NCBI RefSeq assembly: GCF_036226685.1
Contig: NZ_CP109009.1
Location: forward strand, 248,001 to 312,000
Reading direction: 5' to 3'
Length of the DNA stretch: 64,000 nt
Source: Streptomyces sp. NBC_00690
GTDB taxonomy: Bacteria; Actinomycetota; Actinomycetes; Streptomycetales; Streptomycetaceae
Shown: in pieces, positions 58,752 through 64,000 of the stretch
Position numbering within the stretch: position 1 is the first letter of the stretch
Layout of the letters: the number at the start of each line of letters is the position of its first letter
Made by a program: the position numbers and the translations under genes
The notes under the pieces: generated by a model
What the model was told of the DNA's origin: nothing
Databases searched by the model: none
What the model saw: the letters and a program-made list of their open reading frames with translations, nothing else

Positions 58752-59228
58752 TCAGGGGTGCGCGCGCCCGGCGAGCTGCGGTCCATCGCCTTCCGTGTGC
58801 TGGGCCGCTTCACCGGCCACTCGTGCGTCGTAGGCGGCCCTGGCCCCCGCGATCTCGTTCTGATGCTCCTCGGTCCAGGTGACCAGCGAGCGAATCGTGG
58901 TGTGGAGGGTGCAGCCGAGCGGAGTGAGCGCGTACTCCACCCGGGGCGGAACGACCGGATGCACCGTACGACTGACCAGCCCGTCCCGCTCCAACTGGCG
59001 CAGGGTCACCGTCAGCATCCGTTGGCTGATGCCGTCGATCTCCCGGCGCAGCTCCGTGAAACGGAGGACACGGCTGTCGAGCAGTGCGATCACCAGGAGG
59101 GACCACTTGTCGGCGATCCGGTCCAGGATCTGGCGGACCTCGCAGTCCTCACGGGTGTCCCACTGGAAGGGGTCCGGGTCCCCGCTGTCGTCGAAGTCGG
59201 TAACCGGGCGGTGACTTGGTGACTTCAA
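58752..59228 (-). CDS. HxlR-family transcriptional regulator
   Basis: 158 residues. Start is TTG 59228, with GGAGG about 4 bp upstream; no ATG or GTG fits. The HxlR core reads CEVRQILDRIADKWSLLVIALLDS and GISQRMLTVTLRQLERDGLVSRTV, with wing VPPRVEYALTPLG. It is divergent from the MFS gene, the usual layout for a repressor of an exporter. GTTAC (59274-59278) and GTAAC (59303-59307) between the genes form an inverted pair that could be its operator. Confidence 0.88.
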   Translation of the reverse strand: MKSPSHRPVTDFDDSGDPDPFQWDTREDCEVRQILDRIADKWSLLVIALLDSRVLRFTELRREIDGISQRMLTVTLRQLERDGLVSRTVHPVVPPRVEYALTPLGCTLHTTIRSLVTWTEEHQNEIAGARAAYDARVAGEAAQHTEGDGPQLAGRAHP

Positions 59229-59347
59229 AGTGCCTCCTTCCCTACCGGTCCATCGTCGCGCAGGATCGATGGAGTTACAAGAAGGAACTGGCCACCCTTC
59301 AGGTAACCGATTCCCTGTTGTCCGCCACCCTTCCGCGGAGCCGTTCC

Positions 59348-60838
59348 ATGTCTACCGACCTGCCACCCTCCCCCGCCGAGCGCCCCGCGCCGGCTGATCA
59401 CCGGGGCGCGCCTTCCAGCAAGCCGTCCGAGACCGGGGGCGGTGCCTTAGCCCCTGTCGAAAAGATGTCCGCGCGCTCCCGGGCCCTATTGCTGGTCCTG
59501 TGCGGGGCAATCTTCCTGGAGGGGATCGACATCGCCATGCTCGCGGTGGCGATCCCCACGATCCGGGCGGAGTTGGGTCTCTCCACGGGTACCGCGGCCT
59601 GGGTGGTCAGCGGATACGTACTGGGCTACGCGGGGTTCACCCTGCTCGGCGGACGGGCCGCCGACCTGCTCGGCCGCAGACGGATGTTTCTGAGCTGGCT
59701 CGTCGTCTTCATCGGCTTCTCGGCGCTCGGCGGACTGGCGACCGAGGGGTGGATGCTGATCGTCTCCCGCTTTGTGACGGGGGTGGCCTCCGCCTTTATG
59801 ACACCCGCCTCGATGTCGATCATCACCACGTCTTACCCGGAGGGCCGACAGCGCAACCGCGCCCTCCTCATCTTCGCGGGCACCGCGGCCGGGGGCTTCT
59901 CGATCGGTCTGGTGATCGGTGGACTGCTCACCCAACTCGGTTGGCGCTGGGTCTTCTACGCGCCGGTACTGCTCGGCGGGATGATTCTCCTTTCGGCCGT
60001 ACGGCTGATCCCCGTCGGAACTACCCCGGTGCGGCAGGGCGGCTTCGACCTCCCCGGGGCGATGACCGCGGCCGGGGCCATGCTGCTGTTGACGTACGGG
60101 ATCGTCCGCCTGGAACACGGGCTGGCGCAGTGGCACATGACGATCGCCGTACTCGCCACCGGTCTACTACTGGCGGCACTTTTCATCCGGATCGAGCAAC
60201 GGTCCCCCTCACCACTCGTACGACTGGGAATACTCCGGCAGGCGTCCGTCGCCCGCGCGGACCTCGGGGCACTGTTGCTGCTCGGCGGCTTCATGGGCTT
60301 CCAGTTCATGGTGACGCTCTACCTCCAGGAGATGCGCGGCTGGTCCTCGCTGGAGACCTCCTTGACATTCCTGGTGACGGGCATCGATGTGCTGCTGGCA
60401 CCGACGGTGACCCCACCACTGGTCGAACGGTACGGAAATGCGCGGGTGATCCTCAGCGGCTTCCTGCTCGCCACCGTGGCGTACGCATTGTTCCTCTGGT
60501 TCGGACTGGGCTCGGGGTATCTGATGATGCTGCCGACCCTCCTGCTGACGGGCGTGGCCTTCGCCTTGGCCTATGGCCCGCTCACCATCGCGGCGACGGA
60601 CGGCGTCGTGGCCGGGGAGCAGGGGCTCGCGGGAGGGCTGCTACACACCGCCACCCAGTTCGGAGCTGCGGTGGGCATTGCGGCTGTGACTGCCGTCCAC
60701 GGCTGGGCGGGCGGTGGCCTCGACGCCTTCCGCGTGGCTCTGGTGGTACCGCTGATGATGGCGCTGACGGGTCTGGTGCTGTCGGCCACGGGGCTACGAC
60801 AGCGCACACGCGGCCCGAAGGTGGGGCGACCGGGCTGA
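59348..60838 (+). CDS. MFS transporter, DHA2-like multidrug exporter
   Basis: 496 residues with about fourteen hydrophobic segments, the DHA2 14-TM pattern. MFS loop GGRAADLLGRRRMFLSW follows the second segment, and antiporter motif C (GGFSIGLVIGGLLTQLGWRWVF) is clear. ATG 59348 is chosen; an earlier in-frame start at 59216 lies inside the divergent HxlR gene. It exports drugs or metabolites by proton antiport and is probably controlled by the HxlR protein. The cargo is unknown. Confidence 0.88.
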   Translation: MSTDLPPSPAERPAPADHRGAPSSKPSETGGGALAPVEKMSARSRALLLVLCGAIFLEGIDIAMLAVAIPTIRAELGLSTGTAAWVVSGYVLGYAGFTLLGGRAADLLGRRRMFLSWLVVFIGFSALGGLATEGWMLIVSRFVTGVASAFMTPASMSIITTSYPEGRQRNRALLIFAGTAAGGFSIGLVIGGLLTQLGWRWVFYAPVLLGGMILLSAVRLIPVGTTPVRQGGFDLPGAMTAAGAMLLLTYGIVRLEHGLAQWHMTIAVLATGLLLAALFIRIEQRSPSPLVRLGILRQASVARADLGALLLLGGFMGFQFMVTLYLQEMRGWSSLETSLTFLVTGIDVLLAPTVTPPLVERYGNARVILSGFLLATVAYALFLWFGLGSGYLMMLPTLLLTGVAFALAYGPLTIAATDGVVAGEQGLAGGLLHTATQFGAAVGIAAVTAVHGWAGGGLDAFRVALVVPLMMALTGLVLSATGLRQRTRGPKVGRPG

Positions 60839-60970
60839 GCCAGCGCCCTGAGCAGCGGGGTGACGGGGTGACAGCCAGAGTGGATGTGGTGTCCACCATC
60901 GGAGGGAGTTCGCCCGGGTGCACAGACGCGCCTGCGCGCATCCGGGCGACCGCACGGCCACATTGACGAC

Positions 60971-61354
60971 ATGACCGCGCACTCAATGAGGGACCTGCTG
61001 CTGCATGCGCAACGCGACGTGGCCTTCGCCGAACTGGCACGCACCGACCCCGACACCGCCGCTGCCGACTACGAGCTCAGCACCGAGGAACTGGAGAGCC
61101 TGCGGCGCCTCGACTGGGACCTGTACCGATATCTGGTCCCCGCGCTCGCAGGCGGAGGAGACCTATCCCTGACACTCCCGCCGACCACTCTCACCGAACC
61201 CCTGCATCTGACCTACCACTCGTTCTCGGAGCTGGTCCGCGGGCCGAAGGGCCCGGAAGCGGAAGCAAAGCGCCGGGACCTGGTGGCGGCCATCGCGACG
61301 CTGAGCGGTTCCGAGCGGCGCGCCAAGCTCGAAGAACTGATGGAGTACGTGTGA
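60971..61354 (+). CDS. Small protein coupled to borosin-type methyltransferase (candidate precursor or binding-domain partner)
   Basis: 127 residues from ATG 60971. The N-terminal helical half (MRDLLLHAQRDVAFAELARTD... then P-D-T-A, ELSTEELESLRRLD) has the A-x-x-D-x-x-F...DP...Y-x-L-(T/S)-x-E-E-x-x-x-L pattern of the borosin-binding domain of split borosin precursors such as SonA. The C-terminal half includes LTLPPTTLTEPLHLTYHSF, a stretch that could be methylated, and then a charged helical tail. Its TGA overlaps the GTG of the methyltransferase gene, so the products are made together. Whether it holds a modified core or acts only as partner cannot be read from sequence. Confidence 0.65.
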   Translation: MTAHSMRDLLLHAQRDVAFAELARTDPDTAAADYELSTEELESLRRLDWDLYRYLVPALAGGGDLSLTLPPTTLTEPLHLTYHSFSELVRGPKGPEAEAKRRDLVAAIATLSGSERRAKLEELMEYV

Positions 61355-62187
61355 ACGCCGCCCAGCACAGCGTGCGTCGTCCGGTCGACATCTACATCGT
61401 CGGCCTCGGTATCCGCAACGTCCAGCAGATCACGCGCGAGGCCGAGCAGGCGGTGCGCCTGAGCAAGAAGGTCTTCACCGTGGATGCCGGGTTCGGCATC
61501 GATGAGTTCCTGAGGACTCTGAGCCCCGATGTGCGCAGCATGCTGGACCACTACCAGGAGGGCGGCGACCGGCTGCGCACCTATCGGGCCATGGCGGCCG
61601 AGGTCGTGAACGCAGCCGTGGACGACTCCCCCGTGTGCTTCGCCACCTACGGGCATCCCAAGATCTATGTGTACCCCAGCCATCTGATCGAGCAGGCGGC
61701 ATCACTGCTCGGGCTGACGGTGCGGGTCCTGCCGGGCATCTCGGCGCTGGACACGATCATCACCGATCTGAGTCTCGACCCGGGTCCGCACGGCCTCCAG
61801 ATGTACGAGGCCACCGATCTTCTGGCCCGTGAACGGCCGTTGCAGTCCGAGGTGCCCTGTCTGTTGTGGCAGGTGTCGGCCGTGGAGACTGCCATGTACA
61901 CCACCAAGCGGGGCAACGCCGAGCGATACCGCCGGCTCCAGGACTTCCTGCTGCGGACGTATCCGGCGGACCACGAGGTCACCATGGTCCTCAGCTCCAC
62001 CTATGCGCTGTTGGAGCCGCTGAAGGAGACCTTCCCCCTGGGAGAGCTCGCCCAGTTGCTGGCCCGCGGCCTCCAGGTCGGGACGCTCTACATCCCGCCG
62101 CTGAAGGAGCGGCCGATCAGTAATCCCGACATCCTCTACGACGCGTTCAACGCCGAGCACCTGGAGCGCATCACCGCGGGGTCGTGA
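61351..62187 (+). CDS. Alpha-N-methyltransferase of the borosin/tetrapyrrole-methylase family
   Basis: 278 residues, GTG start overlapping the previous stop. The SAM_TP_methylase fold opens with VDIYIVGLGIRNVQQIT and shows YGHP (100-103), PGISA (127-131), D-P-G-P-x-G-L-Q and YEATDLL, then LLWQVSAVETAMY. These are the landmarks of OphMA/SonM-type enzymes, which methylate backbone amides of a peptide. Y68, R74, Y78 and Y100 keep the spacing I recall for OphMA Y66, R72, Y76 and Y98. The only clear partner is the upstream 127-residue protein; no protease or exporter gene adjoins except the M48 gene, which converges from 62335. Confidence 0.82.
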   Translation: MNAAQHSVRRPVDIYIVGLGIRNVQQITREAEQAVRLSKKVFTVDAGFGIDEFLRTLSPDVRSMLDHYQEGGDRLRTYRAMAAEVVNAAVDDSPVCFATYGHPKIYVYPSHLIEQAASLLGLTVRVLPGISALDTIITDLSLDPGPHGLQMYEATDLLARERPLQSEVPCLLWQVSAVETAMYTTKRGNAERYRRLQDFLLRTYPADHEVTMVLSSTYALLEPLKETFPLGELAQLLARGLQVGTLYIPPLKERPISNPDILYDAFNAEHLERITAGS

Positions 62188-62334
62188 GCGGGACACCTCG
62201 GTCTTGTGAGGGGTGCCTGCCGGACCGTTCCGCGCCTGTCCCCACCTGTCCGCGCGGTCAGGACAGTCAGGGCAGTCAGAGCCTGTCGTGCGGGAAGCGT
62301 GGTTCTCGTACGACAGGGCTCGGCGTGTTCCACG

Positions 62335-64000
62335 CTATGGGGTGAGATCGGCGAACGGTCTGGACGACGGAAGGACCGGCAGGGGGATGGAGTAGTCGCG
62401 CCGCGGAGCGAGCGGGTCGTGGAGAGGCTCGCGGAACCACGAAGGCATCGCGGTGGCCTGTCCCAGTGGTGGCGCCGGAGCGAACGGGGCGGTTGACGGA
62501 CGGGGCCAGACGACCTGTCCGGACGGGGCCTCGTAGGTGACGTCGTCCCGTCCCATCCAGATGAAACCGCCCACGGTGGAAGCGACGACAAGGACGGTCA
62601 GGGTGACATTGCGAACCCATGGGACGAGCTCTTGCACCGCCTCCGGCAGTTCGGGGGCGACCTTCAACGTCTTGAAGCCGGGGCCGGATTCCGTCGTCTC
62701 CTGCTGCCCCGGCCCGGTGGGGCCGTGGAAGCCTTCGACGGGCCTCATCGGATCGACGCCCACGTCTGCCAGATAGAGGGTGAGACGGGAGGACTGACTC
62801 GGTTGCACGACAGCTTCCATCACCATCTCCCGGAGGGAGGGGGATCGCGGTCGCTCCCCCAATTGGCGCCTCACCAGGGCGAGCAACGCTTCCCCGAGGA
62901 GGTCCAATGGCTCCGCGCCAACTTGCGGCTCCGGCAGGTACGCGGTCAGCGCGCGAGCAAGCGGCATACGGTCTCCCGCCGCCACGAGGTGGAGCACCTG
63001 GTGGAGCGTGATGGGCGTGGCAGTCCGTGAGACCTCCCGGACGGCTTCCAGGAGGGGGGTCACGAGATGGGCACTGCGCTGATCGATCCAGCGACGGAGC
63101 CACGGCTTCCAGGGAAGCGTGGTCGCTCCCTGGTAGGCGGGCAGGAGGCGGGCGATGTCACTGTGGGAAAGGTGCGGGGCGGCTGTCGCACCTGGTCGAA
63201 CGGGGAGGAGCGCGGCTGGTGCTCCGCCCAGGTCCCGTAACCGGTGCATCAGGTCCGGATGCCAGGATCCGAATTCGGTGCGCATGGCGGGTGCGGTGAT
63301 CGCATCGTCACGCAGGGAGGGGATACGGTGCTGGATCTCGGGGTCCGCCGCGGCGTGGGCGAATCCCCGGAAGGGATCTGCTGGGAGCACTCCGCCGGGA
63401 GGCGCCTCCAGAAACACCTGTTGGAACTGTGCCCAGAGCGTTTCGGCCAAGGCTCGTTGGCAAAGGGCCTCGGCGAGGAGGGGTGCGGTGCAGATCGAGG
63501 CAGCCGCCTGATCGGCTTCGAACTCCTGCCTTCTCCGGATGGGTTGGACGAGCCAGCGGAACAGTCGGATGTAGGCGCCGATCAGTAGCTGGGGCAAGCC
63601 CGTGTATCGGGCGACCAGGCCGTTCGCCCTCCCAAAGCGAACCAGGGATTCACGCGCGACCGTCAGACTGACCTCCAGACGGGCGGTGAAGGCTCGGACG
63701 CGATCGTGTCGCAGTGACAGGTGGGCGAGCTCATGTGCGACCACCGCGCGGACCTGGTCCGTTGAGAGAACGGCCAACAGCGGGGCGCCGATCGACAGGA
63801 CCCGGTTTCCCGCCACCAGTCCCAGGAACCGATTGTCCTCGTCCACCAGTTCCGCGGACATCGACGATGTGAGCCGAAGGTGCAGGGGCTCGCTGATGCG
63901 GAACTCGTTGGCCACCTCCTTCACGATGTGGTCGAGCTCCGGGGCCTCGCGGGGAGACAGCCATGTGCCCTCCCCTCCCACCAGGAAGAGCGAGCGGCAT
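62335..64000 (-). CDS. M48-family metallopeptidase with membrane segment (5' end outside window)
   Basis: At least 555 codons; the frame is still open at the window edge, reading SLFLVGGEGTWLSPREAPEL, so the start lies beyond 64000 (GTG 63981 is only an internal candidate). The zinc site is HELAH in VRAVVAHELAHLSLRHDRV, with the third ligand in EFEADQAA. A hydrophobic helix (VTLTVLVVASTVGGFIWMG, near the C-terminal third) precedes a Pro-rich tail. The middle is unusually long for M48 and not assigned. It converges on the methyltransferase gene, 147 bp between stops. Role may be membrane-protein quality control or peptide maturation; unproven. Confidence 0.85.
   Translation of the reverse strand, partial: CRSLFLVGGEGTWLSPREAPELDHIVKEVANEFRISEPLHLRLTSSMSAELVDEDNRFLGLVAGNRVLSIGAPLLAVLSTDQVRAVVAHELAHLSLRHDRVRAFTARLEVSLTVARESLVRFGRANGLVARYTGLPQLLIGAYIRLFRWLVQPIRRRQEFEADQAAASICTAPLLAEALCQRALAETLWAQFQQVFLEAPPGGVLPADPFRGFAHAAADPEIQHRIPSLRDDAITAPAMRTEFGSWHPDLMHRLRDLGGAPAALLPVRPGATAAPHLSHSDIARLLPAYQGATTLPWKPWLRRWIDQRSAHLVTPLLEAVREVSRTATPITLHQVLHLVAAGDRMPLARALTAYLPEPQVGAEPLDLLGEALLALVRRQLGERPRSPSLREMVMEAVVQPSQSSRLTLYLADVGVDPMRPVEGFHGPTGPGQQETTESGPGFKTLKVAPELPEAVQELVPWVRNVTLTVLVVASTVGGFIWMGRDDVTYEAPSGQVVWPRPSTAPFAPAPPLGQATAMPSWFREPLHDPLAPRRDYSIPLPVLPSSRPFADLTP

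Follow-up and report, generated by a model that had tools for sequence, protein, structure and literature searches.

A candidate split borosin gene pair with a predicted internal core and C-terminal follower in Streptomyces sp. NBC_00690

We analysed a 64,000-nucleotide stretch of the genome of Streptomyces sp. NBC_00690 (contig NZ_CP109009.1, positions 248,001–312,000; hereafter the window), in which two coupled genes encode a small, precursor-like protein and a methyltransferase. Judged by sequence and structural models, the pair most likely functions as split borosins do, the small protein having an internal core and, at its C-terminus, a follower; the pair shows the testable features of that class, and backbone methylation is predicted. 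We put the probability of this reading at roughly 0.7. It agrees with the preliminary description of this DNA, which had proposed an actinobacterial split-borosin pair, translationally coupled through a GTGA overlap, and both the open reading frames (ORFs) and the overlap are as described there. Computation supports the enzyme family, a docking-like fold, the coupling, a conserved internal block and a conserved tail. An actinobacterial split borosin is already known from Streptomyces sp. NRRL S-118 (PMC8429565).

When compared with solved structures by phmmer, the enzyme matched dbOphMA (E=3.4e-33), OphA (5.3e-31), SonM (1.4e-23) and MroMA (7e-23), followed after a gap by a cobalamin-related protein (2.1e-4); the borosin structures scored 84.7–118.6 bits and corrin proteins no more than 24.2. 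A profile of 39 relatives matched borosin enzymes alone in the PDB (25/25 at E ≤ 1e-3), and the AlphaFold2 model (mean predicted local distance difference test score 88.5) retrieved borosin enzymes in all 50 Foldseek matches listed, of 219 at E ≤ 0.001. The enzyme also matches Pfam PF00590 (6.3e-15) and NCBIfam YabN (6.8e-16, although its 58 bits lie below the cut-off of 525). Of the ten PF00590 domains in the genome, that of the window enzyme scores lowest; the other nine lack the Tyr/Arg/Tyr/Tyr set of the catalytic site and gave no match to our enzyme profile A2 at E ≤ 10. We then placed these nine corrin-type domains in a tree of 48 rows with 20 locus enzymes, the window enzyme, 17 of at least 120 homologues and dbOphMA (omitting L014, L015 and L021 as cut or disturbed, L024, where no enzyme ORF was caught, and L026–L036). 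A branch with 94/97 support set the nine apart from the window enzyme, although they sit on long branches, so that their join is not beyond doubt. The window enzyme grouped with copies from Streptomyces, Kitasatospora and Streptacidiphilus (100/99), and this clade then joined a set holding Rugosimonospora and Conexibacter (98/97). Because sequence, profile, predicted structure and tree agree, we assign the enzyme to the borosin backbone N-methyltransferases and not to the corrin enzymes; a grouping with cobalamin/CbiE-type methylases, named beforehand as an outcome that would speak against the borosin assignment, was not observed.

The catalytic site was likewise as proposed, with one difference from SonM. 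OphMA and dbOphMA (PDB 5n0*, 6mj*) are the closest solved structures, and on alignment nine active-site positions (Tyr68, Arg74, Tyr78, Tyr100, His102, Pro103, Ser131, Asp134 and Gln174) equal those of dbOphMA. Where OphMA Tyr63 is concerned, we in part presume the residue numbering. Tyr68, Arg74, Tyr78 and Tyr100 are invariant across the rows of alignment A2; among more distant relatives, Tyr68 is missing from L005, L009 and L013, and Tyr100 from L006, L010, L011, L012, L016, L022 and L025. The residues tested in KchMA, a bacterial type III borosin (Y73, R79, Y83, Y105, S136 and Q179; PMC11395268), fall on six of the nine positions at a constant offset of 5 in a comparison of the tested positions; KchMA differs in being a fused protein. 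With the SonM correspondence taken from PMC8429565 at a constant offset of 7, SonM R67, Y71 and Y93 become Arg74, Tyr78 and Tyr100, and together with Ser131 and Gln174 (KchMA S136 and Q179) the key split-borosin residues are present; in SonM, R67K and Y71F each reduced efficiency approximately 100-fold (PMC8429565). The position of SonM Tyr58, however, is occupied by Leu65, and Tyr occurs there in none of the 39 A2 rows. Y58F lowered the kcat of SonM 15-fold (PMC8429565), and at the same window residue KchMA has Y70 (offset 5), whose change to alanine had only a moderate cost in activity (PMC11395268). We treat Leu65 as a difference from the type IV enzyme and not as a matter of a defining borosin feature.

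The small protein was predicted by AlphaFold2 to consist of five helices (residues 6–15, 17–25, 27–33, 38–46 and 49–60), a middle part lacking order and, as its tail, two further helices. Its N-terminal half had been likened to the borosin-binding domain, and on re-alignment the predicted leader does align, weakly but selectively, with the clasp of OphA (321–377) and the docking domain of SonA; a profile search also matched SonA. A hidden Markov model of leaders from which the Streptomyces clade and Conexibacter had been left out still finds the window leader at 9.7e-12; the profile search that matched SonA also matched a stretch of a LigA-like gallate dioxygenase (4.3e-4). A Foldseek search with the small-protein model gave nothing significant (best E 5.2, with OphA and SonA at ranks 9 and 11 of 16), and when the small protein by itself was compared with the PDB by phmmer, only chance-like matches appeared (best E 0.06, a Runt-related factor). 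Among the partner proteins, 18/23 match NF038399 (NH_RiPP_Os17, leaders of the NHLP-clan or Os1348 type) at E ≤ 0.01; the window protein, with 31.9 bits and E=1.1e-7, falls below the 40-bit cut-off of that model. The case for homology with the SonA docking domain and the OphMA clasp is favourable but weak.

As the preliminary description had remarked, the core-like stretch is internal and a classical hydrophobic C-terminal core is absent, approximately 40 residues following the block. Among six close relatives (six of the nine rows of alignment A1, leaving out the near-identical P0003, the short P0006 and the divergent P0010, with region borders set after the alignment had been viewed), residues 66–84 are the most conserved part, with a mean pairwise identity of 0.88, compared with 0.81 for the leader, 0.75 for the tail and 0.53 and 0.50 for the linkers. 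The comparison with Streptacidiphilus gave 10 synonymous against 4 non-synonymous codon changes in this block, and 3 against 10 in the next linker. The Conexibacter partner retains the LPPTTL of the block, which is absent from the more distant P0010. A single-model search for the window tail gave E 0.8; when the tail profile was instead compared with a profile of distant partners, it scored 24.4, or 26.2 if Conexibacter was retained, whereas 100 column shuffles reached no more than 11.7 and the reversed control scored 11.8.

A locus scan taking one genome per species yielded 20 loci, for which partner starts were chosen by hand or from the longest ORF. Four (L017–L020) have enzyme ORFs of 434–458 residues that group with dbOphMA and are probably fused forms. 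In 13 of the 16 split-type loci (L002–L007, L009–L013, L015 and L016) the adjacent upstream ORF has both leader and tail; L008, at a contig edge, and L021 show a tail only, and none was found in L014. These 13 loci come from Actinomycetota, Planctomycetota, Verrucomicrobiota, Myxococcota, Acidobacteriota and Pseudomonadota (L015 by record title), and L015, which was in neither the leader nor the tail model, matches both (4.8e-20 and 1.2e-10). A 4-nt stop/start overlap recurs in nine of them (L003, L004, L005, L009–L013 and L016); the overlap is 1 nt in L002 and 20 nt in L006, and L007 has a 4-nt gap. The middles are wholly different between clades, being Pro-rich, Thr-rich or strand-like. By sequence, the plan of the partners is leader, variable middle and follower, and its recurrence in six phyla favours the idea that the pair represents a distinct subtype. 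Stf0 sulfotransferases lie downstream of the enzyme in L004 and L005 (Pfam), a 2-oxoglutarate (2OG) oxygenase lies in L009, and a Haloarcula plasmid has an enzyme of 40% identity between a docking-like 71-residue ORF and a prolyl oligopeptidase; such neighbours suggest that at least some members of the family make peptide products.

The features of the pair are collected in Table 1. A similar N-terminus is present in seven of the eight homologues of the small protein (P0006 is five residues shorter), and the GTG start of the methyltransferase begins at the final base of codon 127 in the small ORF. The host genome (9.17 Mb, two contigs) gave one match for each of the two proteins (E ≤ 0.01 and E ≤ 1). 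Among the matches listed, the closest named homologues are from Streptomyces, with 94% identity for the enzyme and 91% for the small protein. Close copies are rare: matches were found in 1/392 genomes of the genus at E ≤ 1e-50 (the host only), in 10/394 of the family at 1e-20 (the close ones besides the host being G236 and G252) and in 1/396 of a phylum sample. A scan of positions 60700–62700 found no sigma-70-type promoter or terminator, and neither protein matched the PADLOC anti-phage defence models at E ≤ 0.1.

Table 1. Features of the candidate split borosin pair (window coordinates)
Feature	Position	Strand	Evidence
Precursor-like small protein, 127 aa (start ATG 60971)	60971..61354	+	ORF; 8 homologues (7 besides near-identical P0003)
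Borosin-family backbone N-methyltransferase, 278 aa	61351..62187	+	Pfam, PDB phmmer, profile, alignment, Foldseek
GTGA stop/start overlap of both genes	61351..61354	+	Sequence
Predicted docking leader (borosin-binding-domain-like), residues 6–60, five predicted helices	60986..61150	+	AlphaFold2; alignment with OphA 321–377 and SonA; profile matches SonA
Likely core, residues 66–84	61166..61222	+	Mean pairwise identity 0.88; linkers 0.53, 0.50
Predicted C-terminal helical hairpin (follower), residues 95–127	61253..61351	+	AlphaFold2 helices 95–110, 114–126; profile–profile match with distant partner tails
Active-site stretch: Tyr68 (61552–61554), Arg74 (61570–61572), Tyr78 (61582–61584), Tyr100 (61648–61650)	61552..61650	+	dbOphMA alignment; invariant in 39/39 rows

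Like SonM/SonA, the type IV system, and the NRRL S-118 pair (PMC8429565), the window pair has a separate enzyme with an adjacent small partner, encoded side by side, and it shares with SonM/SonA the enzyme fold, the equivalents of R67, Y71 and Y93 and a predicted five-helix leader. In OphMA and dbOphMA, in contrast, enzyme, clasp and core lie on one chain. Type IV precursors are described as approximately 75 residues long with a C-terminal core (PMC8429565), whereas the small protein has 127 and extends past its core-like segment into a helical, conserved tail; because type IV requires a short precursor with a C-terminal core, the pair is, by its sequence and model, not a type IV split borosin. 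Type VIII split borosins, which we compared by description, also have a stretch after their potential cores, although of approximately 160 residues and not 40 (PMC11395268). No description of the leader–core–tail plan was recognized in the open literature searched, types V–X lying outside the comparison, and the odds that it has already been filed within those types are even.

The preliminary description had noted that no usual protease or exporter for ribosomally synthesized and post-translationally modified peptides (RiPPs) adjoins the pair, and this held for the window and for L002, L003 and L038, where none was tied to it. When the 38 kb around the pair were compared with these three loci, with genes called by our own GC3 (third-position G+C) rule, the enzyme was the sole common gene apart from one oxidoreductase-like match (50%), whose distance from the pair is approximately 5.6 kb in L002 and 9 kb in the window. 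The adjacent upstream major facilitator superfamily (MFS) gene was rejected as a dedicated exporter: it forms, with a divergent HxlR regulator (58752–60838), a unit seen in other genomes of the genus Streptomyces, the two genes adjoining in six of nine other MFS loci, and since none of those nine stretches holds borosin genes we do not tie it to the pair. An M48 peptidase gene (62335–63981, minus strand) was considered as a maturation protease and found no support, being convergent with the pair, present at E ≤ 1e-60 in 1/61 genomes (the host) and without a match among the gene calls of the three loci. No third gene could be shown to form part of the module.

Several other loci were noted in passing. 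Approximately 6–15 kb past the right end of the window (L040:9329–18063) are two large ORFs whose starts resemble, by eye, non-ribosomal peptide synthetase condensation modules. Pro-rich partners with a Stf0-type sulfotransferase downstream occur in L004, L005, L009 and L013 (the last two by eye), and a DUF6065 protein (6.1e-90) comes next after the methyltransferase in Plantactinospora alkalitolerans (L008:1050–1829). The borosin-like cluster on plasmid unnamed4 of Haloarcula sp. CBA1115 (L052:3453–7891) has a hydrophobic end to its 71-residue ORF and a divergent ATP-binding cassette transporter gene. On Serratia liquefaciens plasmid p2-125 (L053:2705–5441), a 77-residue ORF with a three-fold repeated motif, in which no docking domain was seen, lies by a borosin-like methyltransferase and a 2OG oxygenase. 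Within the genus Streptomyces, G098 (L025:748–3413) has a divergent borosin-like methyltransferase between radical-SAM-like and QueC-like ORFs (by eye), and G090 (L023:1468–2540) a type IV-like arrangement in which a 79-residue ORF with a hydrophobic C-terminal stretch lies upstream of a borosin-like methyltransferase.

Binding, methylation, its sites, cleavage and a product would, on the reading of a split borosin with an internal core, take the following form. By analogy with SonA and OphMA, the small protein would dock on the methyltransferase via its five-helix leader, and the flexible internal segment (approximately residues 65–88) would enter the active site for S-adenosylmethionine-dependent methylation of backbone amides, which may proceed in the N-to-C direction. 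In SonA the methylated residues are Leu63 and Ile65, 10–12 residues past the end of its docking domain at 53 (PMC8429565); with this spacing counted from residue 57 or 60, the first sites would be 67–69 or 70–72, and Pro70, Pro71 and Pro77 could not be methylated. The conserved hairpin might be a follower, serving as a second enzyme contact or as a stop keeping the core in position. Finally, and least certainly, a protease whose gene lies elsewhere might excise the methylated segment by cutting in the variable linkers.

It is unlikely, though worth weighing, that the backbone is methylated and the protein stays whole, the methylated internal loop acting as a lasting or switch-like mark with a regulatory or scaffold role. 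The tail is predicted to be folded and is conserved across phyla, the internal block is under purifying and not diversifying selection, and, in the window and the three loci described above, neither a protease nor an exporter could be linked to the pair, all of which would suit such a mark; the middles, however, differ between clades like natural-product cores, relatives stand beside sulfotransferases, an oxygenase or a prolyl oligopeptidase, and the borosins studied to date are described as RiPP pathways. Markedly less probable is that the small protein is an adaptor or inhibitor that binds the enzyme via leader and tail, the true substrate being some other protein or peptide. The isolated docking domain of SonA does inhibit SonM (Ki 3.9 μM; PMC8429565), leader and tail are the parts recognizable across phyla, and a classical C-terminal hydrophobic core is absent, but the internal block is the most conserved among close relatives, unlike an inert linker, and starts close to where the SonA spacing would place methylation. 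That the enzyme is an ordinary tetrapyrrole (corrin) methylase and the small ORF next to it unrelated is scarcely credible, and this reading was rejected: the PF00590 and YabN matches and the titles of many relatives in public entries speak for it, but against it stand the bit-score gap in the PDB, the lack of A2 matches among the other nine domains, their side of the tree and the conservation of the upstream ORF together with the enzyme.

Backbone N-methylation raises the stability and membrane permeability of peptides, and enzymes able to introduce it into ribosomal peptides are sought as tools. Six bacterial phyla contain relatives of the window enzyme, and a more distant one lies on an archaeal plasmid; because many of these relatives are listed as YabN or precorrin methylase, part of this family is probably mis-named in public data. 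On a less likely reading, the small protein is stable as a whole and the loop between its two folded ends is permanently backbone-N-methylated; such a mark, retained across several bacterial phyla, would shape a functional protein or adaptor, and no peptide would be released. If the split-borosin reading is true, the pair would be a compact two-gene module in which the substrate segment lies between two folded ends, and thus a way to methylate an internal protein loop, with the conserved tail as a testable second recognition element.
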